A stretch of DNA of 64,000 nt from Crambe crambe (taxonomy: Eukaryota > Porifera > Demospongiae > Poecilosclerida > Crambeidae): positions 5,638,480 through 5,702,479 of the forward strand of contig OZ004593.1 of NCBI GenBank assembly GCA_963924555.1. Reading direction: 5' to 3'. Below the pieces are notes generated by a model. That model saw only the letters and a program-made list of their open reading frames with translations. It searched no databases and was not told where the DNA came from. How positions within the stretch are numbered: the first letter of the stretch is position 1; the number at the start of each line of letters is the position of its first letter. Below, piece by piece: positions 281 through 63,456 of this stretch. The position numbers were made by a program, and so were the translations under genes.

Positions 281-1481
281 ACTACACATTTCCCACTAGT
301 ACATCAGTGAATGGATCATCTCCTACTGGAAACTGTTCCAGACTGCAGAAAAAAAAAGATAGCATAATGACAACCTGTTTTCAACCGCCAAACTCTTATG
401 TTCTGTTTAATCGGCATATCCCCACACTCACTGGATTAGATGGTGACATGTGGGCAAGTCAACTACTCACTATAAACACAATACAATCCTTGACTGTTGT
501 CATCTTTGACTTCACTGACACACCAGGCTATTTTGGGATACAGAGAGTTGAGGTGGTGATGTTCAACTGTCCACAGTGGGGGATAGCTTCTACTAATATC
601 CTCCTCACAGGGGCCACAGCTAGAAGTCAGCTCTTCAACCCTTTTGCTTCAACCTCTGTTAGTTCCCTCACCTCCTGTGAGTCTCTTGTGAGAGTGTGTT
701 TATCAATCCACATAACTCGGCCACTAATTGGTCTACAATTCACCCATCACCAGGATTCTGACTGGCTGCATCTTGCTGAGGTGACCTTCTATGGTGGAAA
801 TCCTAACTGTCCACCAAATGTCATCCTCAATCCACCTACTACAACACAAACACCAGATACAACAACATCACAACTACAACTGCCAGCACCATCACCTCAA
901 ATAGTAAGTGCATGTGCATGGTTAGGGTGAGGCTTCAGCCTCAATATCCTCATTATGACCATAATTCAGCTAGCCTATGATCCTATGTCTGCTAGCTATG
1001 TGAGTACAAACTGTGCAGGTGTGCATGCATGCAGCTGCCTTGTTCGCTTCATTTATGTTAGCTACAATATGTAATAGCTATAGCTATGTATATGGTAGCT
1101 ATTCCCTATTTTAAAATGTATATATTTATGAGGACTGTCACTAGCTCTTATAGTTTGTAGATTTTGTCCCTACCACCCTGTCTGAAGTCTAGCACTCCAG
1201 CCATCTTGTCAGCTGTCATTGCAGTCATTGTCACAGCTCTACTGGCCACTGTCATATTTGTAGTGGTGCAGGTCATTATCTGCAAGTGCCATCCAAAGTT
1301 CAGACCTGGAGGGACTAAGACAGGAGCCTCAACAGGAGGGGAGGGGCAGGAATATGAGCAGGTCGATGTGGAAGGTGTGGCTGTGAGGAATGGCAATGAT
1401 GCTATGTACATGGAGGTTGGAGAGCAAGGAGATAACACCATTGAACTGAAGGAAAATCAAGCATACGGCACTTACACTTAA
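281..1481 (+). pseudogene. Receptor-array copy 1, 5'-truncated (ectodomain plus tail A)
   Basis: The ectodomain exon runs to 903 (donor ATA|gtaagt) and the transmembrane/tail-A exon is 1161-1481. The 5' side is lost. Sequence up to about 275 matches the first-intron spacer of copy 11 (about 55100-55345) and then jumps straight into the ectodomain a few residues after its usual VYPERY start, so leader exon and acceptor are missing. A one-base deletion in the Thr-rich stalk shifts the frame, so the exon ends in phase 0 instead of phase 1. Exon 3, read from its acceptor in phase 0, happens to be in frame with the membrane segment, so the C-terminal half stays open. Tail A carries YEQV, YMEV and a YGTYT end. 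An upstream exon outside the window could in principle rescue it; as seen it has no start. Confidence 0.7.
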
Positions 1482-2002
1482 TGATCAGTACTTTCAAGGT
1501 TGCACATTTGATAGCTCAGTGCTTACTAACTTATTTCCACACTTGTGACCATGCACATGCCACTAGCTACGTATAGCTACTTTAAATTGTAGTGATGATA
1601 AAGTGTGTGCAGAAACTTAGCTATAGCCAGCTATTTTTTATAATCAAGCTTGTTATTATTTTTGTCTCAAACAAGGACAAGAAACTGCCAACGTTGCGAC
1701 CAATTTTTTCTTTGGTCCTCTTCAGTGCTAGAGTAGCTATCAAGTTATAGATAAAAAATAATAGTAATGGCAACTGAGTAAGAGCGTTTTAAAGGTAAAA
1801 GTTTAAAGTTGTCTATGCCTATAATAATGTGAAACTGCAACAGTTTTGATATGACAGCTACTTAAAGGCTACATGAGGCCATTCATGTAATGAACTTTAC
1901 CTCATGCTAATGGATTCTTGTCACTATAATATCAGCACCTTTTATACATCATCATTCTCCAATAGCTAAATAGCTGAGCTTAGGAACTACGTATCTATAG
2001 GC
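1482..2002 (+). other. Spacer between copies 1 and 2, repeated before copies 9 and 12
   Basis: No gene is visible. The stretch contains a block starting near 1620 (words such as TTTGTCTCAAACAA and TTCTTTGGTC) that recurs near 49190 and 61440, each time just upstream of a two-exon LTSYSGWVIPK leader. It is therefore the 5' flank, and probably the promoter region, of that leader class. Confidence 0.6.
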
Positions 2003-3096
2003 ATGATACTAACTAGCTATAGTGGATGGGTAATTCCCAAGGTGAGTTTCACAGGTTATCATGGTCATAGCTATAGCCCTTAATAGCCAATTGATTGTGT
2101 CCATTTAGGAAACTGGAGCTTTCTTATTTGTCCTGAGCATCTTCATTCCTTTCATATCAACTCAAGGTATAGATTTAGTGAGCTAGATATATATTCCAGC
2201 AGCTATTTTAGTTCTCAATAGCAAGTGTAATAGCAAAAGCTATTTCTGTTAACTTGCTAGCTAGGCAGCTATATAGAGCCAATGATCTATGGACATTCCA
2301 TTCACAGTCTATCCTGAACGCTACTACGCAACTCCAGACCAATCATCTTTGACTTCACTAAATTCAGGCTATGACAGAATAGAAAGAGTTGAGGTGGTGA
2401 TGTTCAACTGTCCACAGTGGGGGATAGCATCTACTACCATACAACTCGATGGGGCCAATGCTAGAAGTCAACCCTTCAACACTTTAAATTTAACCTCTGT
2501 TAGTTCCCTCACCCCCTGTGAGTCTCTTGTGAGAGTGTGTTTATCAGCCCCCCGTATCTCAACCACTAATTATATTATTCACCCTTGACCATCTTTAATC
2601 TAACTATTAGTAGCTATGCACACACACATACACAATACTTGTTCTATGATATGTAACTAGCTAACAAGATCATGTCAGTGTCGAATTTTGTGTTATACTC
2701 AATAATAGCTATATCTCTTAAAATGCACTGCTGCTAGTGAGCTAACTATAATATTATAGCTGGCTGTGTCCATATTTTTTGGTTTTTTGGTATTTTCATT
2801 CCTGCAGGCGCTATTCATAGATGTGCGAATTCTCTCCTTTTCCAATATCATTATCAGTTATCATCACTGTCATCACCACAGCCCTGCTGGCCACAGTTGT
2901 CTTTTTACTGGTGCAGATTGCTATCTGCAAGTGCTATACAAATTCCGGTCCTGGAGGAACTGGGAAAAGAGGAGGGGAGGGGGAAGGGGAGGAGGAGGAG
3001 GTGTACATGAAAATGGGTGGGGATGAGGGAGGCGTGGCTGTGATTAGTGGTAGTAATAAAGGAAATGATCCCACATATATGGAAATTGGAGATTGA
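2003..3096 (+). pseudogene. Receptor-array copy 2, degenerate (second leader type, deleted ectodomain, tail B)
   Basis: Leader exon 1 is 2003-2041 (MILTSYSGWVIPK, phase 0) and leader exon 2 is 2109-2166 (ETGAFLFVLSIFIPFISTQ, phase 1). The ectodomain exon starts at 2308 after ttcacag, but about 240 bp are deleted, joining VYPERY to the LTSLNSGYDRIERVEVV segment. The frame then breaks at the LIGLQF stretch and ends in a stop at 2586-2588, before any stalk. A tail-B exon follows at 2808-3096 and encodes a hydrophobic segment, a Glu-rich run, YMKM and PTYMEI. About 10 bp are missing near its start compared with other tail-B copies, so phase-1 entry would be out of frame. A functional product is unlikely. 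Confidence 0.65.
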
Positions 3097-3514
3097 GGGT
3101 GTGAATTGCAAGTTGGCTGTCCAATGTATAAAATGCAAAATCTAAAGGAGCTGTGTAAACTTGAGGCTGTGTGCCTTTTCCTCAATAGCTGCAAGTTTTT
3201 ATTGCAGTCAATTTACGATCTACATTTGGACAACCAACTTGTAGCTAGCTAATTCACTGTATTAGTGCTTTATGCAGGATTCCCTTGTACCTATAGCTAA
3301 CAATTAATTTTGCTCCCAAAATTTCTTTAGCTCTTTAGCTAGGGCCCCCAGTCACTATCCCTATGGGGGTCTAGGAATGGAGGCCCACTATCCCCATATC
3401 ACTTTGACACAGGAAACAATCTGTTTTTATTTTTGGGTGTGGCTTATGGTTTATTAATACGTGTGCTGCATGCAAGTTCCAACTAGTACCTGTGACGCGC
3501 ATAGCTTCTTCAAG
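3097..3514 (+). other. 5' flank of copy 3 with conserved GGGTGTGGC box
   Basis: No gene is visible. The stretch joins the tail-B relic of copy 2 to the 18-nt start exon of copy 3. It carries GGGTGTGGCTTATGG from 3435, about 80 bp before the ATG. The same stretch is found upstream of copy 7. Confidence 0.5.
3435..3449 (+). promoter_or_regulatory. Conserved GT/CACCC-type box before the MPTVHE start exon
   Basis: GGGTGTGGCTTATGG lies about 80 bp before the start exon at 3515. The same core occurs 72-93 bp before each of the other five start exons (boxes near 11549, 18979, 23454, 42303 and 54830). The core resembles binding sites of KLF/Sp zinc-finger factors. It may simply be part of the duplicated block. 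Confidence 0.4.
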
Positions 3515-6500
3515 ATGCCAACAGTTCATGAGGTAAGTTAAGTCTACAAATCGAGATTACTAACTAAGATGTTGGGCTGACACTCTCTAGTGGAACTAGA
3601 AAAGCACTGCATTGGGAGTGGTTTGGTCAATGTATTGCCATAGTGCATAATTGTGAGCATTTGAGTTAGCTGCCACTTAGTGAGGTGCAAAGCAAGCACA
3701 CTCATTTTTTATGTTAGTGGGGAAAAACTGCCATGTTAGGACCAGTTAAACACAGTAGCTAGACTAGCTAGTTGGACTAGCTGGCATCAGTATATCAGTT
3801 CTTTTGATCAGATCACTGGTAGCTATAGCAAGAAGACAGTGGATTAATATTGCTGCTTTAAAATGCTTGCATGATCAGGAGAGACCTGGGGGGCCTGGGA
3901 TGCCAAATGCTTCACTCTGACTCTAAGAGCTAATACTTTGTTTATAATGTTTATCATGTTGTAGCTGATGTGTACACAATCTCTATGTATATTTTAATGG
4001 TACAATTATAATTATGTAAAAATATTAGCTTTGTATGCATAACCACATTAGTGGTTTGTTTATTTCTATACTGAGTCATGTATATAATTGTGGGGGATCT
4101 CTCGCTAGAAACAATTATGTGCACTGAAAGAGCTCAATCAAATCTTCATACGGGCCTCACTATTCTATGGAACGGAACGGAACAGAACAGAACGGTTCCG
4201 GGACTCTATTTTCACTGAGCACGCGTATGCGTATATGCTAACAGTTTGGGGTCCCTAGGATGGTGAAAGTGTGTAATGCACTGTCATAGCTGATCTTCTT
4301 GTCATTGATGTGCTCTTTCTCTCTGAGATAAACAAGATTCTCTCAAAATTCCCATAATAAACTTAATGACAAAAACAAGTGTTGTATTGATAACAGATGT
4401 TCGTATAATCTTCTAATGACCAGACTATGCTATAGCTAGGACAAACAGACTCAGGCTCACAGTCACTATGCAATAACTCTAATGCTGATGCTTCTTGGCC
4501 GTCTTTGCCAACAAATCAGGCCTATTATCACATGCAGAGAACTGACTAAATGACAGCAGTGAACAAAAACAACAGAGATTGCAAGGTACACGAACTAGTG
4601 ATCGTTTGAAGTGTCAAAGAGAGAGCCATGGTGAAGGAGAATCTCAGATCTATGACTTTGAGGCTTCCAAACAATGAGAGAATCCAGCAATCAAGCTATG
4701 TGTGAGAATAACCATTCAAAACGGCAGTTCGAAAGCATTGAACAGCAAAATTACTAGCTGTGTAAATACTAGCTAATCAATCTTACTACAATAAGCCATG
4801 TTGCTCAGTGCGCATTATTTAGAACTCTCCACAGAAAAGAAGTATATTTTGGCAACATTTTGTAGAAACATTAACCCCTGCACTTTCAATTATTTATGCC
4901 CATGCAGCAAGTGTTGAGCAATTCCAAACATAATCATCCTTTAGGACTCTGGCTTCAAGCCGCATCTCTTATATACCCACTGTAAAGCATTTAAAATAAA
5001 ATAGCTAAATTTAGAAAGTTAAAGGTTGCACTTAGTGCCGAGGCATTCCTAGTCCTTTTAAAAGACTAACTTAATTGTTAGAAAAGTTGGAGCCTATGAG
5101 ACAAAGCAAATAACCTCACAAAATGGGAGGGGGAGGGAACTGGCTGGAAATTGTCAAGCTGCTATTCTGAGCAGTAGTAATGAATTCTTTGGACAAGCTT
5201 TAGTTAACGACTTATGCTTACTGGATTGATTGTTTACATGCATACACATACATATATACATACATACATACATACATACATACATACATACATACATACA
5301 CATACATTGTACATACATGGTGTTTCCATCTAAAATTAAAGCAGAGGACTTTGTTCACGCTGACATTATAATTGCATTGTTATGTTGTTGATTATTATAG
5401 GGATACATGTTCAAGAGTGTACTCTTTTCAAGTATCTTTCTTCTTCCTCTCATCTCATCTCAATGTATGTCACTGTATGAGCTGTACTTATTTCCCCAGG
5501 CTAAGTCCTTGAGTCCTTTACCTGGGCTTGCTCACTAGTCTAACTTGAGTCCAGCCTTGGCTTTTACTAGTCAGGCTTCACTGTAAAGTTAGATATTAAT
5601 ACTGGAATTTTAGTGGAAATGGATGACTGGTGTGTGCAGTCATGTGATTATCATGATGATTGGCACACATAGTGTGGTGAGTAGTGTTACTAGGTCCCTA
5701 CTTGGTTTGCTTATTCCACACTGGGGAGTTGGCTGAAGAATTACATACTGCATGTATAGTGGAATAAATTTTTTGTGGTTTCGTGGTTTCATGGTTTCGA
5801 AAATTACCGTATAGCGAGAAATTTTCGAGGGAGAAAATTTTCACGAATTTCACTAAAGAGGAGCAATTCGTGAAAAAATATACCATGAAATTAAAGCCAG
5901 GTAGTAGGTAAAGGGTAGATATAAATTGGGCGTGGTCAGCTAGATCAAGAAGCGAAGCATATCAATACCGGTATATGGCGCTTTACAAGTACTTCAGGCG
6001 GTCTATGTCTGCCGATGACTGTCCTCTGCCAGACCCAGAAGGACCTTTATCTATCAGAATACCCTCTTCGTCGATTTAAGTAGCTAATAAAGAAGTAAAA
6101 CTAATTTTGAACGAAGTACATGCTGGAAATGGGAAGAAGCGTGGTCCTTACAAGAGCTACACTGCTAGCGAGAAAGCTAGGATTGCCAAACGGGCTGTTG
6201 AGTGTGGTGTTACTAACACTATAAGGTATTTTGCTACTGAGTTTGCTGACAGACCCCTGAATAAGGGTACAGTTCGTATATGGGTCAAGCAATACAAACA
6301 TGAGCTTGTCCTGAGAAAGAAAGATAATAAGAGCATGGACATTAAAGCATTGGAGAGCATGAGAAGAGGTCGGCCATTATTGCTTGGTAATGAATTGGAT
6401 AAACGACTTCAAGAATATATTAAGTCCTTAAGAGAATGTGGAGCTGTTGTCAACACTCGCATTGTAATGGCAGCTGCTGAGGGAATAGTAAAAAGTCATG

Positions 6501-9500
6501 ATAGTAACTTGCTTCTTTTTAATGGTGGGCACATTCATTTAGGTAAGCACTGGGCAAAGAATTTTTTGTATCGCATGGGTTTTGTCAAACGAAGGGCAAA
6601 TACTACAGCGAAAGTGACTGTGTCGGATTTTGAGGCTTGTAAATCCCAGTTTTTATTTGATATTGAAACCATTGTTGAAATGGAAGAAATTCCTAAGGAT
6701 TTGATCATCAATTGGGACCATACAGGGATTAAGTATGTACCCGTGGGCAACTGGACTATGGCTAAAGAAGGAAGCAAGAGAGTAGAAATTGTTGGTATGG
6801 ACGACAAGAGGCAGATTACTGCAGTTTTTGGATGTACCATGGAAGGTGAGTTTTTGCCACCTCAAATCATATATGGTGGAAAAACTCCTCGATGCTTACC
6901 TTCAGCAAAGTTTCCTAGCTCCTGGGACATTACGTACTCTCATAATCACTGGGCAAATGAACAGACCACAGAAAGTTACATCCAAAAAATTTTGATCCCA
7001 TTCATTGAAAAAAAGAGGTGTACCCTAAAACTCAGCCCTCAGCAGTCAGTTCTTGTTTTGTTTGACAGATTCAAAGGTCAATGCACACAAGGTATACTCT
7101 CTTTGTTGGACAAGAATAATATTCTCTATGCAATAGTACCTGCCAACTGTACAGATCGCCTCCAACCACTTGATGTCAGCATAAATAAGGCAGCCAAGGA
7201 GTGTCTTCGCAGGCAGTTTCAGGAGTGGTACTCCAACAAGGTATGCCAGCAGTTAGAAGAAGGGAAGAAAGCTACTGCAAAATCAGTTGATTTAAGGATG
7301 TCAGTTGTTAAGCCACTCAGTGTAAAGTGGTTGATTAGTGTTAATGACTACATCAAGTCACACCCTGAAATGATAAAGAATGGATTCAAAGAGGCTGGAA
7401 TTCTCCAGTGAAGTGACGATTATGAATTATGATGCATATTTGATTTCTTTAAACATTATAATAATTATTATAATATAGTATTATAAGGAAACATGGTAAA
7501 TTTATTGTTACTGAAACACTTTAAAAGATGGGGCCTCATTTGGGATTGATTAAAAACAATATCTGTGACATTAACATGGAGTAAAAGTGACAGAACTACA
7601 GCAATAGCAAATAGGCCACAGTCTTGACCACCAACTTGCTTTTGCATCCAAATGAGATCAAATTTGGGTGAACTGGAGAGTTTAAACAGGTTGGTAATTA
7701 TTGTTTTACTCTCTCCATCCAAAGAATTATAAACAGAGTCATAAATTTCAATGACATCTATAGCACTATTAAGAGTAAATGCAACTATCCAGTGATTACC
7801 CCGGTCATGTATGATTTGTACCCCCTTTTCTATCCTCTTTGCTGGTACTTTCTTTTGAAAAACTGTTGAAATTAAACCTTCCGTGCCAGGAAATTGTCCT
7901 AGCAATAGTCTTCCTGCAAAACTGATGTGCTTGTCATTCAACATCTCGCCATTCAAAATGATGTCTCTGTCTGATTCAGTCATAAAATATCCATTAGCCT
8001 TCAACCAAATACTGGTAACTGCATTTGAGCTAGAGTCCTTCATTGATTTTTTCTCCCCTGAATCTTCATTCTCCTCGGTAGTAGTCACTAACTTGATTTT
8101 CTTATTAGGAGGCTCAATATAAATATTATTATTTACCACAGAAGGAGCATTCTTCAGTAACTTCTTCACTTTATTAATATCTTTCTCCTTTCCGCTGAAA
8201 GTTAGTATGCATGGTATTTCCAGGCCACCCTGAGGTAAATCAGATGAATACCGCCTACTTCCAGTAACTTGACAATGAATGGTACCCGATTTTCTCAGAA
8301 AGAAATGACAAACAGCAGATATAGCTCTAGGCACATGACCAACAGTAGTGCCTGAAGTCACGACAGCTACAGCATAGGGGTCTTCTACATTTCCAAATTC
8401 GTTCTGGCATGTAAGAATTTCACCATGAGGAGCTGTCCATATGCTCTTATACACATGATAGCCACGAATACAAGAATCTAAACTGTAAGTAGTAGCCATC
8501 TTCTCGATCTCCAAAATAATGCAGCTGCAACCTTACGCATGCGCACGTCGTGAAGTACAGCTTAGGATGATGTCATGCATGCGTGGTTGAAATTCTCTTT
8601 TGACATCGTGAATATTTTATTCGTGAACTGAAGTTGTGATCCTGTTTCGTGAAAAATTTGTCCCTCGAAAATTTCTCGCTATACGGTAGTTCCTCTATGC
8701 TCAAAAAATTATGCTCATGTGTAAAGTTATTATGCTCATGTGCAATGTCATTATGCTTATGTTGTGCACTGATCAGTAAATCTGACCCTGGATTTGTGGT
8801 AATTGTGTTCATGGTTTGTGAATCAGCTGATACTGAAAGAGTTTTTTTTTTCAATGCTAAAAAGACAGTTTACTGATAAACAAGCCAAGACTATGTGGAA
8901 TTGAATGTCATGCTAGCGTGTAATAGTCATTCAAAATGAATATATGAAATGTGATGATTATGATGCTTGTTATTGTGCCAAGGCAAGGCCTAAGTGTGAA
9001 CCATATAATTTCCCTTGTTTTTTGTATGCCTGCTATGCAGTTTTATTTTGTGGTGATCATCTGTTGGCTTGCATTCTTTTAAAAATTTTTCTCCCCACAT
9101 TCTGTTTAGTCTATCCTGAATGCTACACATTTCCCACTGGTACATGTACATCAGTAAATGGATCATATCCTACTGGAAACTGTTCTAATGTTAGTATGGA
9201 TGACACAATGACAACCTGTCTGCAACCAACCACCAGTGTTCTGTTTGATGGGCGTGTTCCCACACTCACTGGATTAGATGGTCACATGTGGGCAGGTCAA
9301 TTACTCACAATGCAAACAACGCAATCTCTGACTAATGTCATCTTTGACTTCACTGACACACCAGGCTATGTTGGGATACAGAGAGTTGAGGTGGTGATGT
9401 TCAACTGTCCACAGTGGGGGATAGTATCTACTACCATCACCCTCAGTGGGGCCACTGCTAGAGGTCAGCCCTTCGTCACTTTTGATTCAATCTCTGTTAG

Positions 9501-10626
9501 TTTCCTCACCTCCTGTGAGTCTCTTGTGAGAGTGTGTTTATCAGCCTTCATTTCTCTACCACTAATTGGTCTACAATTCACCCTTGACCAGGACTCTGAC
9601 TGGGTGCACCTTGCTGAGGTGACCTTCTATGGCAGAGGTCTCACATGTCCACCAAATGTCATCCTAACACCACCACCTACAACCACAATATCACCAATGA
9701 CAATGTCACCAACGACAATGTCACCAACCACAATGTCACCAACTACAACTGCCATCACCTCGAATAGTAAGTGCATGTGTGTTAGTGTATGACGGTAGTT
9801 GTGAACCTTCACCTTCTGAATCATTAGGGTGAGGCTAGCCTCACTGTGACCATAATTCAGCTAGCCTATGTCAGCTAGTTATGTGTACTAGTACAAAATT
9901 TGAGGGATGATAAATTGTGCAGACTCACACCATGTGCATGAATACATGTCTGCATTTATGCATAGCTAGCTGCCTGGCCAGGGTTTACCGAGTCCCGAGG
10001 GTGAGGGTCGTTTATAATCATAATACCCATGGCACCCATGTTTAAAGTTGACACTTTAGCAGAGAGATTATACATTTCCATGGACGATGGGCAATATATG
10101 ACTCATATTGCCCATCACGATGAGCATTATGGCTTATAAACCACTTTGATCTCGCCCACACATGAGATGTAATTAGCATGTGTTATAGCTGTTGCTATAG
10201 CTGCCAATTATGGTATTTCCTATCTTCAATATGAATTTATGAGGACTATCACTAGCTCCTAATCATTATAATCATACTGTAGACTCTGTCCCTACTACAA
10301 GTTCCTCCCTATCTGATGTCTGTCCCCCGACTCCTTCCTGTTCCATTACTCCAGCCATCTTGTCAGCTATCATTGCAGTTATTGTCACAGCTCTACTGGC
10401 CACAGTCATCTTTGTGGTGGTGCAGGTTGTCATCTGCAAGTTCCATCCAAAGTTCAGACCTGGAGGGAGAGCCTCAGCAGGAGGGGAGGGGCAGGAGTAT
10501 GAGCAGGTCAATGTGGAAGGTGTAGCTGTGAGGGGTGGCAATGATGCTATGTACATGGAGGTTGGAGAGCAAAGAGGTAACACCATTGAACTCAAGGAGA
10601 ATGAAGCATATGGCACTTACACTTAG
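3515..10626 (+). CDS. Receptor-array copy 3: single-pass membrane protein, tail A (intact)
   Basis: Proposed exons are 3515-3532 (MPTVHE, phase 0), 5401-5464 (GYMFKSVLFSSIFLLPLISSQ), 9110-9766 (ectodomain and stalk) and 10283-10626 (membrane segment and tail). They total 1083 nt, or 360 residues with no internal stop. The leader is hydrophobic. The ectodomain has conserved Cys residues, N-glycosylation sequons near its start, and an ending WVHLAEVTFYG that resembles the last strand of galactose-binding-like domains. The stalk repeats a TMSPT-type unit. The membrane segment contains VIFVVVQVVICK and is followed by YEQV, YMEV and YGTYT. All junctions fit GT-AG in phases 0, 1, 1. The second intron holds the pogo-type element at 5807-8686. 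Surface receptor is inferred from architecture; no ligand is known. The start exon is inferred from its conservation and phase; the ATG at 5407 is an alternative. Confidence 0.7.
5229..5313 (+). repeat. (CATA)n microsatellite in intron 1 of copy 3
   Basis: A run of CATA units lies just before the leader exon. A shorter version sits in the same position in copy 7 (about 25266-25318), so the two introns are duplicates that differ in repeat length. Confidence 0.85.
5807..5847 (+). repeat. Left terminal inverted repeat of the pogo-type element
   Basis: The first 26 bases match the reverse complement of 8661-8686 exactly; the following 15 match imperfectly and include TTTCACGAA in both ends. Confidence 0.9.
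6005..7411 (+). CDS. Pogo-like transposase (CENP-B-type HTH, DDE_1), probable in-frame stop near the start
   Basis: The main open frame is 6107-7411 (434 residues, TTG at its left edge). An N-terminal helix-turn-helix region (about 15-65) is followed by a CENP-B-like region and a DDE_1 catalytic core. The three acidic residues are Asp204 in NWDHTG, Asp320 in LFDRFKGQ and Asp356 in LQPLDVSINK, giving a DD35D spacing. These motifs are typical of pogo/Tigger cut-and-paste transposases. There is no in-frame ATG near 6107. An ATG at 6005 is in the same frame and opens 24 residues, but a TAA at 6077-6079 interrupts it. The copy may therefore carry a nonsense mutation near its 5' end or start differently. 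The catalytic core looks undamaged. Confidence 0.88.
7468..8514 (-). CDS. HIRAN domain plus Ulp1-like (C48) cysteine protease, carried by the pogo-type element
   Basis: This intact 348-residue frame starts with ATG at 8514. Residues about 15-105 resemble a HIRAN domain (YHVYKSIWTAP, DPYAVAVV, VGHVPRAIS), a module known from DNA-remodelling proteins. A basic linker follows. Residues about 185-345 resemble the Ulp1/SENP peptidase fold, with candidate catalytic His241 (GNHWIVAF), Asp259 (IYDS) and Cys299 (QVGGQDCGLFAIA). LNDKHISFAGRLL matches the N-terminal region of transposon-associated Ulp1 proteins. The gene lies wholly inside the element and faces the transposase, so it is element cargo or an accessory gene. 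It could cleave SUMO or ubiquitin-like proteins, or have another peptidase role; the substrate is unknown. Confidence 0.8.
   Translation of the reverse strand: MEIEKMATTYSLDSCIRGYHVYKSIWTAPHGEILTCQNEFGNVEDPYAVAVVTSGTTVGHVPRAISAVCHFFLRKSGTIHCQVTGSRRYSSDLPQGGLEIPCILTFSGKEKDINKVKKLLKNAPSVVNNNIYIEPPNKKIKLVTTTEENEDSGEKKSMKDSSSNAVTSIWLKANGYFMTESDRDIILNGEMLNDKHISFAGRLLLGQFPGTEGLISTVFQKKVPAKRIEKGVQIIHDRGNHWIVAFTLNSAIDVIEIYDSVYNSLDGESKTIITNLFKLSSSPKFDLIWMQKQVGGQDCGLFAIAVVLSLLLHVNVTDIVFNQSQMRPHLLKCFSNNKFTMFPYNTIL
8646..8686 (-). repeat. Right terminal inverted repeat of the pogo-type element
   Basis: Reverse complement of the left end; the outermost 26 bases are identical and TA follows at 8687-8688. 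Confidence 0.9.
9675..9760 (+). repeat. 15-bp coding repeat in the stalk of copy 3
   Basis: Repeats of an ACAATGTCACCAAC unit encode TMSPT-type pentapeptides in the Pro/Thr-rich stalk. Other copies have different numbers and kinds of Pro/Thr units, so stalk length varies by repeat expansion. Confidence 0.8.
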
Positions 10627-12988: not shown

Positions 12989-14679
12989 TTGCAGTAATCA
13001 TAGTCGAATATTGTGGAATATGGTCTGTGGTCAGTCATTGTTGCCTCGTGTTTGTTTTGTGACTGACTCAATTCTAGTCAGTCTCTGTTGTGCCTATAGG
13101 TGTACTGTACTGGAGATGGCCACAAAATAATAATCTTTCTAGTAAATCAGCTATAATATACATGCACATGGGTTTTAGTGGTTTTTATTATGCTTCACAC
13201 AAGAGACTCAATTTGGATAGAAATATTGCAACTGGGACCAGTCTATTTCCAAGACAAAAGAATTATAGATCACATTGCAGGCCCCGATAGATGTGTCCAT
13301 GCTTAACATTTTTTTAAATACGTTAGGTATTATACAAGTTCAGAGCAGCACTCATTTTGAGTATCTTTCTTCCTCTTATCTCATCTCAAGGTAGAGCTAA
13401 TACAGTACTAACAGGACCATACAAATTCCTTCTCAGTGGCCAGTTACAAGATTACTGTAATTCCCTCCTATTCCACAGTCTATCCTGAACGCTACACATT
13501 TACCAAAATGGATCATCTCCTACTGGAAACTGTTCTAATGTTAGTATGGATGACACAATGACAACATGTCTACAACCAACCTCCAGTGTTCTGTTTGATG
13601 GGCGTGTCCCCACACTCACTGGACTAGATGGTGACATGTGGGCAAGTCAACTACTCACTATAAACACAACACAATCCTTGACTAATGTCATCTTTGATTT
13701 CACTGACATACCAGGCTATTTTGGGATAGAGAGAGTTGAGGTGGTGATGTTCAACTGTCCACAGTTGAGGATAGCATCTACTACCATTGTTCTCACAGGG
13801 GCCACAGCTAGAGGTCAGACCTTTAGTTCCCTCACCTCCTGTGAATCTCTTGTGAGAGTGTGTTTACCAGGCCCCATATCTCAACCACTAATTGGTCTAC
13901 AATTCTTCCTTGACAAGGACTCTGACTGGGTGCACCTTGCTGTGGTGACCTTCTATGCCAGAGGTTCCACCTGTCCACCAAATGTAATCCTCAATCCACC
14001 ACCACCAGATACAACACCAAATATGACACTACCTGCTATACCATCAGATTCAGATACAACTTCAGAAAAATCATCACTGGGTACAATACGCTTATTGTAT
14101 ATCTACTCAAATTTCTTTATTGTGCACAAAAGCATGCAGAACAAAAAAGGAATAATAAGGATGATGGCGGCGGGCGCCCACAAATTAACTGAAACATGAC
14201 ATAACATGACATAAGGCCTATGTGATTACAATGACACAGTGTAGATCTTAATGTATTACACACTTGTTATTAGCTATATATGTACCTGCAGATGGTACTG
14301 AAGCAGAGCGTTGTAATATCTGAGAACTGACTGTACTGTTTTCTTATGTTATTTGATTATTTTACGTATTTTTCCTGCTGAGATTTTTAAAATCGGGTCC
14401 ACTTTTTTCCCAGACCTGCTGAGATCTTGGCAGTGAAACTGGATTATTGGGTCCACTTTTTTCCCTTGCCAAAAACGGACCTGTCGAGCTCATGGCAGTG
14501 AAACTGGACCAGGTCCTTCCTTGCCAAAGTGTATGCTTACCCATGAATCATGGGTAAGGTCACCAAACGTGTATATACGGGTCACCAGACCCTCCCGATT
14601 TTTCCGGGGGGTCACGCACGCCAGACTAAACCACTTCAGTGGTTTGTATTGGAGGGTCTGATTACTCAATCACTCCTGT

Positions 14680-41887: not shown

Positions 41888-42174
41888 TAGTCATCACCAC
41901 AGCCCTGCTGGCCACAGATTGCTATATCTGCAAGTGCTATACAAAGTCCAGTCCTGGAGGAACTGGGAAAGAGGAGGGGAGGGGAGGGGAGGGGGAGGAG
42001 GAGGGGGAGGGGGAGAAGGAGGAGGAGGTGTACATGAAGAGATGGGTGGGGATGAGGGAGGTGTGGCTGTGATTATTGGTACGGTAGTAATAAAGCAAAT
42101 GATCCCACGTGTATGGAAATTGGAGATCGAGGAGATACTATTGAACTAAGGGAGAATAAGGCATATGATAAAAT
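41888..42174 (+). pseudogene. Tail-B exon relic upstream of copy 8
   Basis: It lacks the acceptor side, replaced by the adjacent long-TIR element. It retains ITTALLA-type membrane codons, a long GGAGG run that encodes Gly/Glu, a VYMK stretch and a DTIELRENKAYD end homologous to the C-terminus of tail A. Frame breaks occur in the membrane part. Confidence 0.6.
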
Positions 42175-48700: not shown

Positions 48701-49034
48701 AGACTCTGTCCCTACCACAAGTTCTTCCTTGTCTGAATGTTCCAGCACTCCAGCCATCTTATCAGCTGTCATTGCAGTCATTGTCACAGCTCTACTGGCC
48801 ACAGTCATCTTCGTGGTGGTACAGGTTGTGATCTGCAAGTGTCATCCAAAGTTTAGACCTGGAGGGATTAAGATGGGACTCTCAGCAGGAGGAGAGGGGC
48901 AGGAGTATGAGCAGGTCGATGTGGAAGGTGTAGCTGTGAGGGGTGGCAATGATGCTATGTACATGGAGGTTGGAGAGCAAGGAGGTATCACCATTGAACT
49001 CAAGGAAAATGAAGCATATGGCACTTACACTTAA
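42388..49034 (+). CDS. Receptor-array copy 8: single-pass membrane protein, tail A (intact)
   Basis: Proposed exons are 42388-42405 (MPTDYE, donor gtatta is weak), 46036-46090 (GYMFKSVLFLLLPLVSSQ), 46879-47508 (ectodomain and stalk, ending TCATCAG|gtaata) and 48703-49034 (membrane segment and tail). They total 1035 nt, or 344 residues, without a stop. The usual donor at 47632 is present but would be out of frame with an in-frame TAG, so I chose the upstream one; the intervening 120 bp look like a second stalk unit. The tail carries YEQV, YMEV and YGTYT. The start exon assignment is the least certain part. Confidence 0.65.
42781..42880. mobile_element. Hairpin MITE remnant
   Basis: TTAGGTTATTTGAGTTGCAA and its inverse lie back to back, followed by GAGTTGTTTTTACATG and TTTTTATAGTG. 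It is related to 44056-44144 but lacks the matching left end. Confidence 0.6.
44056..44144. mobile_element. 89-bp perfect-hairpin MITE
   Basis: The two halves, starting CACTATAAAAAG and ending CTTTTTATAGTG, are inverted repeats of about 40 bp around a short CTAATT centre. There is no room for a coding region. Confidence 0.8.
45719..45891 (+). mobile_element. hAT-like MITE with ATAGA-type flanks
   Basis: Same family and position as 15624-15790. Its interior includes a GT run, poly-G and a TGGGGGGGCTAGAGCCCCCC hairpin. The right end has one change (CCACTA in place of CCACTG). Confidence 0.6.
47860..48190 (+). repeat. Palindrome and (GATAAT)n repeats in intron 3 of copy 8
   Basis: GTGCGTTATGACTCATAACG is part of a 23-bp palindrome near 47872. 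GATAAT-type repeats follow at about 47950-48030, and a GCTGACTGTTGGAAGAAGA unit recurs three times up to 48190. Confidence 0.6.
48445..48557. mobile_element. 113-bp hairpin MITE
   Basis: Ends GTTAGAACACGGTAGT and ACTACCGTGTTCTAAC are inverted, and the inner CTGGTGATTATGG is inverted as well. It sits in intron 3 of copy 8. A target duplication could not be fixed. Confidence 0.7.
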
Positions 49035-49594: not shown

Positions 49595-51590
49595 ATGAAA
49601 CTAACTAGCTATCTTAGTGGATGGGTAATTCCCAAGGTGAGTTTCACAGGTTATTATGGTCATAGCTATACCCCTTAATGATTGTGTCAATAGGAAACTG
49701 GAGCTTTCTTGTTTTTACAGTACTTCATTCCTTTCATATCAACTCAAGGTATATAGATACGTATATCTAGCTAGCTGTGTTTGCTAGTTTAATAGTTATT
49801 TTAGCAGCTATTTTTTCAGTTATAGAAGGAACAAGTAAACTACGTAGCTATAGCCATTCCTGTTTCTGATAACTTGCTAGCTAGCTAATACACTAGAGCC
49901 AATAATGTAGCTATGGGCATTCATTTCACAGTCTATCCTGAACGCTACACATTTCTCACTGGTACATCAGTGAATGGATCATCTCCTACTGGAAACTGTT
50001 CTAGACTGCAGAATGATGGCACAATGACAACCTGTTTTCAACCGCCAAACTCTGGTGTTCTGTTTGATTGGCATTACCCCACACTCACTGGACTAGATGG
50101 TGACATGTGGGCAAGTCAACTACTCACTATAAACACAACACAATCCTTGACTAATGTCACCTTTGACTTCACTGATACACCAGGCTATGTTGGGATACAG
50201 AGAGTCGAGGTGGTGATGTTCAACTGTCCACAATGGGAGATAGCATCTACTACCATCCAACTCACAGCAGCCACTGCTAGAGATGAACCCTTCAGCATTT
50301 TTTATGTAACCTCTATTAGTTCCCTCACCTCCTGTGAGTCTCTTGTGAGAGTGTGTTTATCAGTCTTTGTTTCTCGACTACTAATTGGTCTACAATTCAC
50401 CCTTGACCAGGACTCTGACTGGCTGCACCTTGCTGAGGTGACCTTCTATGGTGGAAATTCCATCTGTCCACCAAATATCCTCAATCCACCATCACCAGAT
50501 ACAACTATCATCACCTCGAATAGTAAGTGCATGTGTATGTTAGTGAGGCTTCTTCAGCTAGACTAACTATACGTGCACTAGCCAGTACAAAATCTGAGGA
50601 TGACTGTGTGCATGCATGTATTTATACATAGTCGTAGGTCGATCCACCTACAACACCACCGCTAGATACAATACCACCAACTACAATGTCACCAACTAGC
50701 TACAATTGCCATCTTGAATGATAAGGGTGCCATTTTGAATGGTAAGGGGTGCGTGCTTGCATGAAAATACCAACACATTAGGTACAGTTGTCAGGTGTGC
50801 AGCTACGTATGTATTTATAAAGATGGACCCATGATTATATCTCGATGTTGATATGATTCCAATCTGTTATATAGGATCCAATTCAAGGGGCTCTACTCTG
50901 ACACCAAGGGAAAACGTTGAAGCTGCCATCACAATTGCAGTGTTGTTCACACTCCTCATTCTCATCATCGTTGTCATCGTTCTCATCCTACTTCTCGTCC
51001 ATCTCTATCGGCAAAAATATCCCATTCAAAATGATCAGCATAACACTACAACACTCCAAACTTGTGATAAAGATGGAGATAGAGGCAATGGCAAGAAAGG
51101 GCATGCAGATGTGGGAACAGGAATTTTGACTGGCAAGGAATTTACGAGACCTGCTGCTCAAACAGGAGGGGAGTACTTGTCAGTTGATGTGGAAAAGGAT
51201 GAATCAAATCAACCGTACAGCTGCCTTAAGCATAACGTGCCACACAAGGCCGAGATGATACGTCCAATACCTGCGGCTTATTCCCAAATCAGTTTAATAC
51301 CAGAAGAAGATGAGTTTGGGTATGTTGTAGACCACAAGAAAAAGGATTTACCTACTGAGAAGACTCAGCCAGTAGAGTCAGCACCAAGTGTGGAAGTCAA
51401 GAAAGACCAAGCAAGCCACAAAATGATTAGTGAACGAACGATGACTGGAGTGTATGCCAAGGTGGACAAAAAGGGGAAGAGCAAGACTACGCCTATGCTC
51501 GACGACCCATTTGATGATCCGTTTGGTCCTCCTCCAGTGCCTCAGAAATCAGCTCTACTCTTGGAAGATCTCAAAAGACAACAGCAGTAA
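49595..51590 (+). CDS. Receptor-array copy 9: single-pass membrane protein with long tail C (intact)
   Basis: Exons are 49595-49636 (MKLTSYLSGWVIPK), 49694-49748 (ETGAFLFLQYFIPFISTQ), 49932-50522 (ectodomain, short stalk) and 50875-51590 (membrane segment and tail C). They total 1404 nt, exactly 468 codons with the stop, or 467 residues. The membrane segment (AAITIAVLFTLLILIIVV and on to LLVHLY) is followed by about 190 cytoplasmic residues. These include Tyr motifs (YLSV, YSCL, YSQI, YVVD, YAKV), two DPF motifs of the kind bound by AP-2 appendages, and PPPVPQ, an SH3-type ligand. The tail thus looks built for phosphorylation and endocytic adaptors; this is inference. Polyadenylation signal AATAAA lies 3 nt after the stop. 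Confidence 0.82.
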
Positions 51591-52702: not shown

Positions 52703-54037
52703 GGGCCAGTACAATTTCAAAGCAGCACTCATTTTGAGTGTCTTCATTCCTCTTGTCTCATCTCAAGGTATGCACTTCAAGTAGCTAGCTATGATAACAG
52801 ATACGCTTTACCATGATGTAGCTAAATCTCTCCTCTTCCAGTAGCCTATCCTGAATGCTACACATTTCTCACTGGTACATCAGTGCATAGGCGGAGGAAC
52901 ATATATTTACCTGGGGGGGGGGGGCCAACCCCAAACCCCCATTGCACCATGTGTACCCGAAAATAGTTGTGATTTAATTAAAAAACAAGAGTCAAAATAG
53001 AGTTGAAAATATTTCACTTTGCACATGCCGTCATGTATAATTGTCTCCTACACTCCTACAATGACTGGGGGGGGGGGGGGGGGGGGGGGGGCAAAACCAT
53101 AAGTATAAAAAATCTGGGGGGCCATGGCCCCTTGGGCCCCTGATTCCTCCGCCTATGCAGTGAATGGATCATCTCCTACTGGAAACTGTTCCACAGTGGG
53201 GGATAGCATCTACTACCATCACCCTCCCAGGGGCCACTGCTAGAGGTCAGACCTTCAATGTTTTTGCTCAAACCTCTATTAGTTCCCTCACCTCCTGTGA
53301 GTCTCTTGTGAGAGTGTGTTTATCACACCACGTAACTCGACCACTAATTGGTCTACAATTCACCCTTGACCAGGATTCTGATTGGCTGCACCTTGCCGAA
53401 GTGACCTTCTATGATAGAAATTCCATCTGTCCACCAAATGTCATCCTCGATCCACCTACGACAGCACCACCAGATTCAACAACCACCTCGAATAGGCATG
53501 GTTAGGGTGAGGTTTCAGCCTCATTATCTTCATTGTGACCATAATTCAGCTAGCCTATGACCCTACAGGTGTGCGTACATGCACCTGCCTTGTTTGCTTC
53601 ATTTATAATGTTAGCTAATATAATGGCTGTAGCTATATATGTAGTATATATTCCTTATTTAAAAATCTATTTATGTGGACTGTCACTAACTCTTTATATA
53701 CTCTGTAGACTCTGTCCTTACCACAAGTTCTCCCCTATCTGAAGTCTGTGAATGTTCCATCTTGTCAGCTGTCATTGCAGTCATTGTCACAGCTCTACTG
53801 ATCACAGTCATCTTTGTGGTGGTGCAGGTTGTCATCTGCAAGTGCCATCCAAAGTTCAGACCTGGAGGGACTGAGACAGGAGCCTCAGCAGGAGGGGAGG
53901 GGCAGGAGTATGAGCAGGTTGATGTGGAAGGTGTAGCTGTGAGGGGTGGCAATGATGCTATGTACATGGAGGTTGGAGAGCAAGGAGGTATCACCATTGA
54001 ACTCAAGGAGAATCAAGCATACGGCACTTACACTTAG
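52703..54037 (+). pseudogene. Receptor-array copy 10, dead (MITE in exon, deletion, lost donor)
   Basis: The leader-like exon 52703-52767 is 65 nt instead of 64 and has no start exon upstream. The ectodomain exon begins about 52845 and is interrupted by a MITE at 52886-53157. After it, GGAAACTGTTC is fused to CACAGTGGGGG, deleting the central part of the domain; both sides carry AACTGT, pointing to a microhomology deletion. The exon end reads CGAATAGGCATGG, so the gtaagt donor is gone. The tail-A exon 53709-54037 remains open, with YEQV, YMEV and YGTYT. Confidence 0.8.
52886..53157. mobile_element. 272-bp MITE inserted in the ectodomain exon of copy 10
   Basis: Inverted ends CATAGGCGGAGGAA and TTCCTCCGCCTATG. 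CAGTG flanks it at 52881-52885 and 53158-53162, and other copies read tcagtgaatgg without interruption. The interior has poly-G runs and no coding frame. A 5-bp duplication fits the hAT-like group of this window. Confidence 0.85.
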
Positions 54038-54903: not shown

Positions 54904-57635
54904 ATGCCAACAGATCATGAGGTAAGATAAGTCTACAAGTCAAGATTTTTAACTAGAATGTTGGGCTAACACTCTCTAGCGAACTAGGAGTTATAATAGC
55001 TGCCACTTTAATAGTGAGGTTCAAAGAAAGCACACTATGTTTATAGTGGGGGAAAACTGCCAGTTAAACACAGTAGCTATACTAGTTGAGCTGGCATCTC
55101 AATGAAACGGTTTCAGTCCATTTGATCAGATTACTGGTAGCTAGTTATAGCAAGAAGATATTTGATGGATTGCTGCCTTAAAATGTTTGCATATTCAGTT
55201 TATGAAACCTGGGGGGTGGGATGCCAAATGCTTTACTCTGACTCTAGAGGTAATGACATACTTTCAGTTTATCATTTATCATATTGTAGCTGATGTTTAC
55301 ACGATCTGTGTGTATTTTAATGGTACATGTACTAATATTAGCCCCTTTAGTGGTTTGTTTACTTCCACTGAGTTACGTATAATAATAATTGTGGAGGATC
55401 TCTCACTAGAAACAATTATACTTGATGACTGTACACTAAAAGATCTCAACCAAATTTTCGTATCCATATCTTCATGGGAATTGTTGGAACTCCGAATATT
55501 TTTCTTACTGTGCCCATGCTTAGCACATTGTTTTATATAGCTATAATAATTCATTTTTCATGTCGAGTCATATGTCGTTGTTGAACATAACCATGAAATA
55601 ACAAAGAAAAATTTCCCAATTTATGGTTGAGACTGACTAGAATACAAAAACAACCATAGGAATTTTAGATTGGTCCATGGAATTGCAAGGACTAGGAATC
55701 AAATTAAAAAGTTTCTGGGGCACTAGCTACACAGACTGTGCACTATTTTAGCTGCCACAGGTTTAACTTGGGAATAAAAGGGGGGGGGGGGTTGCTACCC
55801 ACCCCTGGATCCAGCCCTGGTTGTGGTCTGACTCAGACCACAAGCTACAATGGAACCTCCAAATAATGGACACATGTGACCCATCCTTTTCTCCTTTGAA
55901 GAGAGCCTCTTTTGGAGGTTATTTTGTATAGAGTGTATATACAGCTAATGGTATTTTTAGATTGTTCTTTGTTGAGAGGTTTGTCCTCTTTCAGATGAGG
56001 TTCCACTCAACTTCCTCAGGGATTTTGGGCTGGGAGGGAAACTAAACAGAGGACCTTCCCAATTCTTGTTGTACATGGCCACAAAATTATAGTAGATTAA
56101 CTACACTATATATGCACATGGGTTTTAGTGGTTTATTCACACAAGAGACCCTATCCAGATAGAAATATTGCAAATGGGACCAGTCTATTTCCAAGACAAA
56201 AAAATCATAGATCACATCCCAGGCCCCAATAGATGTCCATGCTTAACATATTTTTTTAATATGTTAGGTATTATACAAGTTCAAAGCAGCACTCATTTTG
56301 AGTATCTTCCTTCCTCTTATCTCATCTCAAGGTAGAGCTAATAACAGATGCACAGTACTAACAGGACAATACAAATTCCTTCTCAGTCGCCAAGCTACAA
56401 GATTACTGTAATTCCCTCCTATTCCACAGTCTATCCTGAACGCTACACATTTCTCACTGGTACTTCAGTGAATGGATCATCTCCTACTGGAAACTGTTCT
56501 AATGTTAGTATTGATGACACAATGACAACCTGTCTGCAACCAACCTCCAGTGTTCTGTTTGATGGGCGTGTCCCCACACTCACTGGACTAGATGGTGACA
56601 TGTGGGCAGGTCAACTACTCACTATAAACATTACACAATCCTTGACCTATTTCAGCTTTGACTTCACTGATACACCAGGCTATGTTGGGATACAGAGAGT
56701 TGAGGTGGTGATGTTCAACTGTCCACAGTGGGGGGTAGCATCTACTACTATCTCCCTCTCAGCAGCCACTGCTAGAGGTGAACCCTTCTTTAATTTTGCT
56801 TCAACCTCTATTAGTTCCCTCACCTCCTGTGAGTCTCTTGTGAGAGTGTGTTTGTCAAGCTCTGTATCTCGACCACTAATTCGTCTACAATTCACCCATG
56901 ACCAGGACTCTGACTGGGTGCACCTTGCCGAGGTGACCTTCTATGGTGGAAATCCTAACTGTCCACCAAATGTCATCCTCAATCCACCTACTACAACACC
57001 ACTACCAGATACAACAACATCACCAACTACAACTGCCATCACCATCACCTCGAATAGTAAGTGCATATGCATGGTTAGGGTGAGGCTTCAGCCTCATTAT
57101 CCTCATTGTGACCATAATTCAGCTAGCCTATGACCCTATGTCTGCTAGCTATGTGAGTACAAACTGTGCAAGTGTGCATGCATGCAGCTACCTTGTTATA
57201 AGGTTATAGCTATAATAATGGCTGTAGCTATGTTATGGTATTCCCTATATACTTTTAAATGGACTGTCACTAGCGCTTGTATAGTCATTTATATACTCTG
57301 TAGACTCTGTTCCAACCACATGTTCTCCCCTGTCTGAAGTCTGTGAATGTTCCAGTACTCCAGCCATCTTGTCAGCTGTCATTGCAGTTATTGTCACAGC
57401 TCTACTGGCCACAGTCATCTTTGTGGTGGTGCAGGTTGTCATCTGCAAGTGCCATCCAAAGTTCAGACCTGGAGGGATTAAAACGGCAGGAGGGGAGGGG
57501 CAGGAGTATGAGCAGGTTGATGTGGAAGGAGTTGCTGTGAGGGGTGGCAATGATGCTATGTACATGGAGGTTGGAGAGCAAGGAGGTAACACCATTGAAC
57601 TCAAGGAGAATCAAGCATATGGCACTTATACTTAA
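54904..57635 (+). CDS. Receptor-array copy 11: single-pass membrane protein, tail A (intact)
   Basis: Exons are 54904-54921 (MPTDHE, donor gtaaga), 56268-56331 (VLYKFKAALILSIFLPLISSQ), 56430-57056 (ectodomain and stalk) and 57304-57635 (membrane segment and tail). They total 1041 nt, or 346 residues. Exon 2 has AAG where other copies have the internal ATG, so this copy needs the 18-nt start exon; that the frame fits through all four exons supports the model. The ectodomain has the NCSNVSIDDTMTTC loop type and ends WVHLAEVTFYG. The tail has YEQV, YMEV and YGTYT. Confidence 0.72.
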
Positions 57636-60947: not shown

Positions 60948-61859
60948 CAGGGGCGGATTTAGAGGGGGTCAGGACCCTCCAACCTCTTATGAAGTGCCTA
61001 GTAGCAGTAGCTCCAGTTTATGTCTCAGCGTTCCACATACCACAGTCAGTGCTAGTGCATGCGATCCGCGATCAATTGGAAAGCGCGCGATTCGATTACA
61101 ATTTCTTTCGATGACGACCATTGGGTAAACTGAGCATGCGCACATGCACTTGTAGCAATGAAGAGAGCAGCAGCCATCAAACCACAGACCATAGATCTAT
61201 GCACAGACCAAGTATTTCAAAAGGTATACGATTTTAGCATAACAATCTATGATTTTATTAATTGATTAACTCGTTGGATACGGTCAAGCACAGTGGCAGA
61301 TGTGGAATGCCATCTGCATGTGGATATGTCTAATACTATACAACTGACCCCCCCTTCTAAATTGCAACTCAGAGATAACCTAAAAATGCGTTCATGTCAC
61401 TTTATAGTTAGTAGCTAGCTAACTAGATAATTTATTGTTGTCATGTGTGCAGGAACTAGCTAGCTATAGCTGGTTATTTTTATTTATCAAGTTTGAAGTT
61501 CTTTTTATCTCAAACAATTTGTATTTTTGTTTCTTTGGTCTTCAAGGCTAGAGTGTCAGCTAATAGATACATGTTATAATAACAACAATAATATAATGAC
61601 AACTGCTTAATGCTTGTTTAGGTAAAGTTTGAAGTTGTCTATGCCTATGGTAGAAACCGTAACAGTTTTGATATGACAGCTACTTGAAGGCTGCGCACAT
61701 GAGGCCATTCATGTAATGAACATTATCTGCCTTTACCTCGTGCTAATGGATTCTTGTTACTATATCAACACACATCATCATTCTCCAATAGTTAGCTAGC
61801 TATAACATTTTTGGATTGCAAATAGCTAACTAGACTGAGCCGAGGAACTATCTATAGAC
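60948..61859 (+). other. Spacer before copy 12
   Basis: It starts with CAGGGGCGGATTTAGAGGGG, which looks like one end of a hAT-type element whose other end was not found. From about 61440 it matches the spacers before copies 2 and 9. No gene is visible. Confidence 0.45.
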
Positions 61860-63456
61860 ATGAGACTAACTAGCTATAGTGGATGGGTAATTCCCAAGGT
61901 GAGTTTCACAGGTTATTATGGTCATAGCTATAGCCCTTAATGATTGTGTCCATAGGAAACTGGAGCTTTCTTATTTTTCCTGAGTATCTTCATGCCTTTC
62001 GTATCAACTCAAGGTATAGATACTAGCTAGCTATATTTGGTAGTTAGCTAGCTATGTATTCCAGCAGCTATTTCAATCATAGAAGTAGACAGGATCAAGC
62101 ATATAAGATATTGATTGATGCAATTACATAGCTAGCTATATATAGCCATTCCTGTTTCTGATAATATAGAGCCAATAACATTCATTTCACAGTCTATCCT
62201 GAACGCTACACATTTCTCACTGGTACATCAGTGAATGGATCATCTCCTACTGGAAACTGTTCTAGACTGCAGAATGATAACACAATGACAACCTGTTTTC
62301 AACCGCCAAACTCTGGTATTCTGTTTGATGGGCGTGTCCCCACACTCACTGGACTAGATGGTGACATGTGGGCAAGTCAACTACTCACTATAAACACTAT
62401 GCAATCCTCGACTAATGTCACCTTTGACTTCACTGATACATCAGGCTATGTTGGGATACAGAGAGTTGAGGTGGTGATGTTCAACTGTCCACAGCGGGGG
62501 ATAGCATCTACTACCATTGTCCTCTTAGGGGCCACAGCTAGAGGTCAGCCCTTCAGCACTTTTGTTTCAACCTCTGTTAGTTCTCTCACCTCCTGTGAGT
62601 CTCTTGTGAGAGTGTGTTTATCAGGCCATGTATCTCAACCGGTAATTCGTCTACGATTCATCCTTGAATGAAAATACAGTACCAACACATTAGCTAGACT
62701 CCTTGTGTATTTATAAGACAGAACTCAGGATCCATGATTATCTTGATATTGATGCAATCTATGTATACAGGATTTGATACAAGAGGCTCTACTCCAAAAC
62801 TAAGGCAAAACGTTGAAGCTGCCATCTCCATCTCAGTGGTGTTAACGCTCTTCATTCTCATCATTGTCCTTGTCATTATCATCCTACTTCTAGTCCATCT
62901 CTATTGGCAAAAATATCCTATTCGAAAACCCCGAATTCATTCTAGAGAATACGAGCACAAAAAAGGGCACGAAGAGGTGGTAACAGGAAATTTGACTGGT
63001 AAGGAATTTACAAGTCCCACTGCTCAAACAGGAGGGAAGCACTCATCGGTCAACATAGATAAGGATGAATCAAGTCAACCTTACAGCCGCCTTAAGCATA
63101 ATGTGCCACAGAAGGCTGAGATGATACGTCCAATACCTGAGGCTTATTCTCTAATCAGTTTAATTCCAGAAGAAGATGAGTTTGGGTATGTTGTAGACCA
63201 CAAGAAAAAGGATTTACCTACTGAGAAGACTCAGCCAGTAGAGTCAGCACCAAGTGTGGAAGTCAAGAAAGACCAAGCAAGCCGCAAAATGATTAGTGAA
63301 CGAACGATGACTGGAGTGTATGCCAAGGTGGACAAAAAGGGGAAGAGCAAGAGTACGCCTATGCTCGACGACCCATTTGATGATCCGTTTGGTCCTCCTC
63401 CAGTGCCTCAGAAATCAGCTCTACTCTTGGAAGATCTCAAAAGACAACAGCAGTAA
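61860..63456 (+). CDS. Receptor-array copy 12: truncated ectodomain, intact long tail C
   Basis: Leader exons are 61860-61898 (MRLTSYSGWVIPK) and 61956-62013 (ETGAFLFFLSIFMPFVSTQ). The ectodomain exon starts at 62193 but is cut after RLRFILE, where it runs directly into intron sequence (ATGAAAATAC, matching copy 9 near 50760) and stops at 62669-62671. The last strand, stalk and donor are deleted. The membrane/tail-C exon 62771-63456 is open, with YSQI-type (YSLI), YVVD, YAKV, DPF twice and PPPVPQ. Two products are possible: a secreted, truncated ectodomain, or a leader-tail protein if the ectodomain exon is skipped, since both junctions are phase 1. AATAAA at 63459-63464. Confidence 0.65.

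Follow-up and report, generated by a model that had tools for sequence, protein, structure and literature searches.

What kind of receptor is encoded by the tandem genes that fill a 64,000-nucleotide stretch of the Crambe crambe genome (chr13:5638480-5702479, hereafter the window), and to which known signalling system are they related? The original prediction had described twelve plus-strand copies of one receptor gene design, of which six looked intact, and had left the family unrecognised. We can now tie this family to the DDR-type receptor tyrosine kinases (RTKs) of the same cluster. Highly probably, the genes of the window are paralogs of DDR-type receptor kinases that lack the kinase, because related ectodomains precede DDR-best kinases in the same cluster and the DS-like domain of DDR1 is the longest structural match, tied on score, of the modelled ectodomain.

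We searched the window by tblastn with peptides for each module, assembled from the copies themselves. Twelve ectodomain stretches were found, all on the plus strand, which bears out the predicted copy number and orientation. The same searches gave eight good short (type B) tails, two long (type A) tails and four divergent or partial pieces, and the E-values reached down to 3e-111, beyond chance. Ectodomain and tail were both open in six copies (copies 3, 5, 7, 8, 9 and 11), the same count as had been called intact, and the other six of the 12 were broken or partial. The Cys-containing ectodomain, the Pro/Thr stalk, the single membrane segment and the Tyr tail of the proposed design all stood; the leader was located in five of the 12 copies.

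The link to DDRs comes from kinase-bearing relatives. A Pfam kinase search of the genome gave at least 26 kinase rows on chr13 at 4.97-6.05 Mb (hand count, among the matches listed). Five loci fetched from chr13 5.72-5.99 Mb all contained a family ectodomain upstream of a same-strand kinase, with ectodomain identities to the window query of 79% (L048), 85% (L049), 69% (L052), 33% (L050) and 31% (L051). Membrane segment, Tyr-rich region and kinase were present in a single open frame in four of the five; in L052 two overlapping frames hold the membrane segment and the kinase separately, perhaps due to a frameshift. L048 has a phase-1 donor with an acceptor to match, and none of the donor forms searched for was found in L049 and L052. 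In two proteins from the database, P0259 and P0263, ectodomain and kinase share one open frame, and the union of the two is therefore independent of intron guesses.

The kinases of L048, L049 and P0259 gave DDR1 or DDR2 as the top match, 28-49 bits over Trk receptors. When the human DDR1 kinase (the sequence taken from its alignment with the L048 kinase) was used as query against the Crambe genome, the best 25 matches were all on chr13 at 4.98-6.05 Mb, two of the 25 with stops. For the window genes themselves, no kinase match was obtained in the window searches or among the matches listed genome-wide by Pfam.

Other arrangements were observed in and around the kinase cluster. At the cluster edge, L053 (chr13 4976500-4985000) contains two DDR-type kinase genes, one with Ig-type exons upstream and the other without a recognised ectodomain; a DDR-type kinase has therefore been joined to quite different ectodomains. 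L054, a locus with a DDR-type kinase at the cluster edge, showed weak Ig matches under the Pfam cut-offs, and its other upstream domain did not match the family significantly. The 5.43-5.63 Mb region contains fragments of kinases (chr13 5449896, 5540618, 5596699 and 5627045), some of which carry stops. The last three are located downstream of same-strand short-tail genes, as if lost in place or stranded.

We examined the ectodomain by profile searches and by structure prediction. Pfam searches of the window frames named no family for the receptors, and Pfam searches of 110 ectodomain-family proteins found no family common to more than five of them. One ectodomain had no match in PDB by sequence, and a 110-row ectodomain profile against PDB gave chance arginase rows only. 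The Pfam model of the DDR DS-like domain had no match in the Crambe genome; the same model was silent in control genomes too. Structure prediction gave a fold: the residues encoded by 46881-47438 of copy 8 were modelled, in two models, as a discoidin-type jelly roll. Among its structural matches the DDR1 DS-like domain was the longest, but it was tied on score.

The Crambe receptors resemble DDR1 and DDR2 in several respects. The cluster kinases tested are DDR-best, and a search with the DDR1 kinase gives the cluster as its top matches; the ectodomain is a jelly roll with the DS-like domain as longest match (tied score); and the window receptors have a Pro-rich stalk, a single membrane segment and a Tyr-rich cytosolic region. 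They differ in having one ectodomain, with no N-terminal collagen-binding DS domain recognised by Pfam: the F5/8 type C domain, which corresponds to it, was absent among the Pfam families listed for the 110 family proteins and also for P0259 and P0263. The window copies also lack the kinase, and the Crambe family is arranged in tandem with at least 105 ectodomain-bearing rows.

The exon order is leader, ectodomain with Pro/Thr stalk, then membrane segment with tail, and the introns are in phase 1. The leader exon (MFKSVLFLLLPLVSSQ and variants) was located for copies 3, 5, 6, 7 and 8 (Table 1); it encodes a hydrophobic, signal-like peptide and ends in phase 1. Nine further leader sites were found in the 5.43-5.63 Mb region, one of them beginning with CTG. 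In the copies at 9112, 16773, 32014, 49934 and 56432 the phase-1 end of the ectodomain exon is AATA/GTAAGT. Tail exons begin in phase 1 (acceptors judged by eye). In copy 8 (46881) a donor of the usual form was searched for at the end of the ectodomain exon and none was found. Searches upstream of the ectodomains at 49934, 56432 and 62195 found no convincing leader, and for copy 1 (277) the search was limited by the little upstream sequence within the window. The leader at 25422 presumably belongs to the ectodomain at 32014. The stretch right before the ectodomain (NPYHFVVIIELACILL...) was considered as a signal peptide and rejected, since it leads into a splice acceptor and since the conserved leader is present further upstream.

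Table 1. Receptor gene modules in the window (positions counted from its first nucleotide).
Feature	Position	Strand	Method
Copy 1 ectodomain exon, open, donor in other phase (likely disrupted)	277..930	+	
Copy 1 type B (short) tail exon, open frame	1161..1481	+	
Copy 2 ectodomain fragment	2367..2549	+	
Copy 2 divergent type-B-like membrane/tail piece, early end	2821..3096	+	
Copy 3 leader exon MFKSVLFSSIFLLPLISSQ, donor GTATGT	5407..5464	+	
Copy 3 ectodomain exon with Pro/Thr stalk, intact	9110..9766	+	
Copy 3 type B tail exon: membrane segment, YEQV, YMEV, AYGTYT	10283..10626	+	
Copy 4 ectodomain exon without 5' end; own tail not found	13507..14199	+	
Copy 5 leader exon MFKSVLFLLLPLVSSQ	15941..15989	+	
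Copy 5 ectodomain exon, intact	16771..17415	+	
Copy 5 type B tail exon	17701..18053	+	
Copy 6 leader exon	20623..20671	+	
Copy 6 ectodomain exon, in-frame TGA (broken)	21474..22027	+	
Copy 6 type B tail exon, open	22400..22752	+	
Copy 7 leader exon, LTR retrotransposon between leader and ectodomain (presumed assignment)	25422..25479	+	
Copy 7 ectodomain exon, intact	32012..32623	+	
Copy 7 type B tail exon, 3.6 kb downstream (presumed assignment)	36185..36537	+	
Isolated tail fragment	42095..42166	+	tblastn
Copy 8 leader exon	46042..46090	+	
Copy 8 ectodomain exon, open; coordinates run to the stop codon of the frame	46879..47633	+	
Copy 8 type B tail exon	48703..49034	+	
Copy 9 ectodomain exon, intact; leader not found	49932..50522	+	
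Copy 9 type A (long) tail exon: membrane segment, four Yxx[VILM] motifs, PxxPxK motif	50875..51590	+	
Copy 10 ectodomain exon without 5' half	53170..53457	+	
Copy 10 type B tail exon, open	53709..54037	+	
Copy 11 ectodomain exon, intact; leader not found	56430..57056	+	
Copy 11 type B tail exon	57304..57635	+	
Copy 12 ectodomain exon, stop close to 3' end	62193..62671	+	
Copy 12 type A (long) tail exon, open	62770..63456	+	

Two window genes are split by intronic transposon insertions. A Gypsy-type long terminal repeat (LTR) retrotransposon, so classed by the arrangement of its protease, reverse transcriptase and integrase matches (26043-31164, minus strand), is located between the copy 7 leader and ectodomain. 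Transposase remains (32979-34831, minus strand), with a DUF4371 match in one of three frames and presumably hAT-like, are located between the copy 7 ectodomain and tail. The first intron of copy 3 contains a DDE_1/Tc5-like transposase frame (6080-7411, plus strand) and a frame with a HIRAN match slightly under the cut-off (7468-8532, minus strand). The 10-kb gap between copies 7 and 8 contains an 81-base tandem repeat of about nine copies (39597-40335). Second divergent membrane/tail pieces (2833-3099, 10983-11195 and 18413-18625), with one stop each, were found ∼0.4-1.4 kb past a type B tail, and they may be relics or former alternative tail exons.

The array continues past both edges of the window over ∼0.55 Mb of chr13, and further clusters are found on chr18, chr10 and other chr13 sites. 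A 720-base piece of copy 1 gave at least 40 long matches in the genome (self included) and six short ones, with 40 of 124 candidates scored. The related protein P0079 gave at least 125 matches, 105 with ectodomain residues and 20 with tail only (hand count). These were located on chr13 at 2.94-3.00, 5.43-5.98 and 6.07 Mb and on chr18 at 0.88-0.95 Mb, with a few on chr10, chr1 and chr17; chr13 and chr18 account for most of the ectodomain-bearing ones. All these counts are lower bounds because only the best candidates were scored, and some rows are fragments. At chr13 5.529-5.558 Mb five copies are on the minus strand inside the otherwise plus-strand array, perhaps as an inversion. The protein P0107 is a distant relative (36-39% identical) with a tandem pair of ectodomains followed by a single membrane segment. 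No report of the family was found among the open-licence papers listed, judged from titles and the beginnings of abstracts.

Three kinds of inside module follow the ectodomain: the short tail B, the long, Tyr- and Pro-rich tails A or L, and the kinase. We favor, as rather probable, the interpretation that this large tandem cluster combines a common discoidin-type ectodomain with one of several inside modules, as a paired-receptor-like set on an RTK scaffold. A tree of 56 ectodomain rows requires eight changes of the short-tail label and three of the kinase label, and the kinase gene L049 nests among short-tail ectodomains with a support of 86. Two results of the same tree weigh against free mixing of modules: shuffled labels are more mixed (means of 17.9 changes for short-tail and 4.9 for kinase), and 27 of the 53 inner branches are weak. 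A 341-residue frame at L029 (chr17 5903000-5905500) has a family ectodomain and a hybrid tail, with a long-tail-like start and a short-tail-like end.

Six proteins from another lineage, for which a single species and a sponge origin are assumed, carry the same two tail types, tail B in P0079 and P0154 and tail L in P0080, P0111, P0126 and P0135. Their ectodomains are 70-80% alike regardless of tail, vs. 52-60% against four Crambe ectodomains, and each tail matches no class but its own (45 pairs). The tail classes are therefore older than the present ectodomain sets, in agreement with within-species homogenisation by conversion or exon exchange.

Of the three tyrosines of tail B, one is conserved in 23 of 24 copies and the other two in all 24. 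The immunoreceptor tyrosine-based inhibitory motif (ITIM, [SIVL]xYxx[IVL]) was absent from three window tails and from the tails of L031 and L036; the pattern occurs three times in the kinase gene L050, once in L051 and twice in P0259. A PxxPx[KR] motif is present in type A and L tails and in eight of the 10 kinase genes examined (not L048 and L051), and is not present in tail B. A kinship of the tails with the juxtamembrane region of the kinase receptors was considered and rejected, with one weak match only (E 4.5e-4).

Selection was estimated on 23 of 41 ectodomain rows (from the window, the 5.43-5.63 Mb region and L003) that had a short or type A tail, no stop and a full 5' end. The ratio of nonsynonymous to synonymous substitution rates (dN/dS) was 0.89 for the ectodomain (n = 23; 0.42-1.33 in 20-codon windows) and 0.34 for the short tail (n = 24). 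Tree-based counts also gave 0.89 for the ectodomain, not clearly different from neutral (P 0.07). Four conserved ectodomain stretches were at 0.40-0.65. Residues 146-158 reached 2.20 (P 0.03 uncorrected), a weak test for positive selection, and positions 108 and 121 showed ten residues each among the 23 copies; site counts would be inflated by gene conversion. An alternation of variable sites along beta strands was suggestive in strand 104-112 and not significant overall (permutation P 0.09). The mixture of intact and broken copies described in the original prediction is supported, and rapid change of the ectodomain next to a conserved tail is what recognition receptors would be expected to show.

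Comparison with public sequences gave a limited view of variation. Among 78 Crambe-like database proteins, 17 were at least 96% identical to the compared stretches (part of the cluster), and 14 of these reached 100%. The best genome-wide matches of three related proteins from public contigs were 89% (P0001), 83% (P0003) and 93% (P0026). This divergence hints at haplotype variation and is not a population test. P0003 is assigned to a contig of the same length (1,711,867) as proteins identical to the window, which suggests, short of proof, that the animal's second haplotype was sampled or that its assembly is mosaic. A second Crambe haplotype has been deposited (GCA_963924525.1, PMC12166358).

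How might such a set work? Variable ectodomains would recognise a range of ligands, whether on other cells, on microbes or in the matrix, and kinase-bearing members would initiate phosphotyrosine signalling. Kinase-less members with similar ectodomains may bind overlapping ligands and, phosphorylated by kinase-bearing partners, would recruit SH2/SH3 proteins as substrates and docking platforms; alternatively, they may act as competitors of the kinase-bearing ones. We give a recognition role of the family, judged from its genes, about an even chance, and infer for the window receptors only putative expression, a putative ligand and a putative allorecognition or immune role. The fuller proposal is tentative and less likely than not: self/non-self recognition on a DDR kinase scaffold, with dozens of kinase-bearing and kinase-less receptors, a diversifying ectodomain homogenised within the species and signalling modules kept across species.

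The receptors could instead bind collagen or matrix glycoproteins as vertebrate DDRs do, the expansion reflecting matrix or adhesion diversity and the kinase-less forms being adhesion-only or dampers. The DDR type of the tested kinases agrees with this, and the Pro/Thr stalk is similar to the extended juxtamembrane region, rich in Pro, that the cited part of PMC3320712 describes for DDR1. However, there is one jelly-roll domain only, modelled nearest to DS-like and not to the collagen-binding DS (tied scores), and a near-neutral ectodomain with up to 10 residues per site in 23 copies is unexpected for a conserved matrix ligand; we regard this explanation as unlikely. The cluster might also be an allorecognition locus that sets tissue compatibility between individuals through ectodomain-to-ectodomain binding. 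The large clustered family with its variable ectodomain, and the three public-contig proteins without a close match in this assembly (83-93%), are in line with such a locus, but it appears unlikely. Under largely neutral birth and death, copies would be multiplied and damaged by unequal crossing-over and by transposons, and the majority of those without a kinase would now be functionless. This reading accounts for the six of 12 broken or partial window copies, the two genes split by transposons, the kinase fragments in the 5.43-5.63 Mb region and an overall ectodomain dN/dS not distinguishable from 1, but the clearly constrained short tail and conserved ectodomain stretches, and the persistence of both tail types in another lineage, make it quite improbable.

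The paired-receptor-like set on an RTK scaffold can be compared with known systems. Vertebrate paired receptors (KIR, LILR) place related ectodomains on different signalling modules in one tandem cluster. The Crambe cluster likewise puts closely related ectodomains on different signalling modules; it differs in that its receptors are not Ig or C-type lectin, the window tails tested have no ITIM and one kind of member bears its own kinase. The ligand-binding domain of Eph receptors is also a galactose-binding-like jelly roll (Foldseek rows and the cited part of PMC6485061), and the same part of that source describes sponge Eph expansions and kinase-less Eph architectures. However, no Eph kinase was among the best 60 PDB matches of L048, where DDR came first, and no Eph domain was among the Pfam listings for the window frames and the 110 family proteins. 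The SRCR and NLR immune receptors are likewise a large lineage-specific receptor expansion in a sponge, but no SRCR or NACHT domain was present in the Pfam listings for the window frames and the family proteins.

The results also bear on the history of DDRs. In the cited parts of two kinome sources, the DDR family was dated to bilaterians by one (PMC8662651), and DDR orthologs were listed in sponges and ctenophores by the other (PMC6485061). In the sponge genome analysed here, the best matches of human DDR1 are 25 kinase stretches that all lie on a single chromosome. The molecular recognition receptors of sponges are poorly known. With a mapped candidate family that has a known signalling relative, tests of expression, haplotypes and binding become direct. 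If the proposed self/non-self system on the DDR scaffold is true, the chr13 cluster of Crambe would become a candidate locus for allorecognition or for the recognition of microbes.

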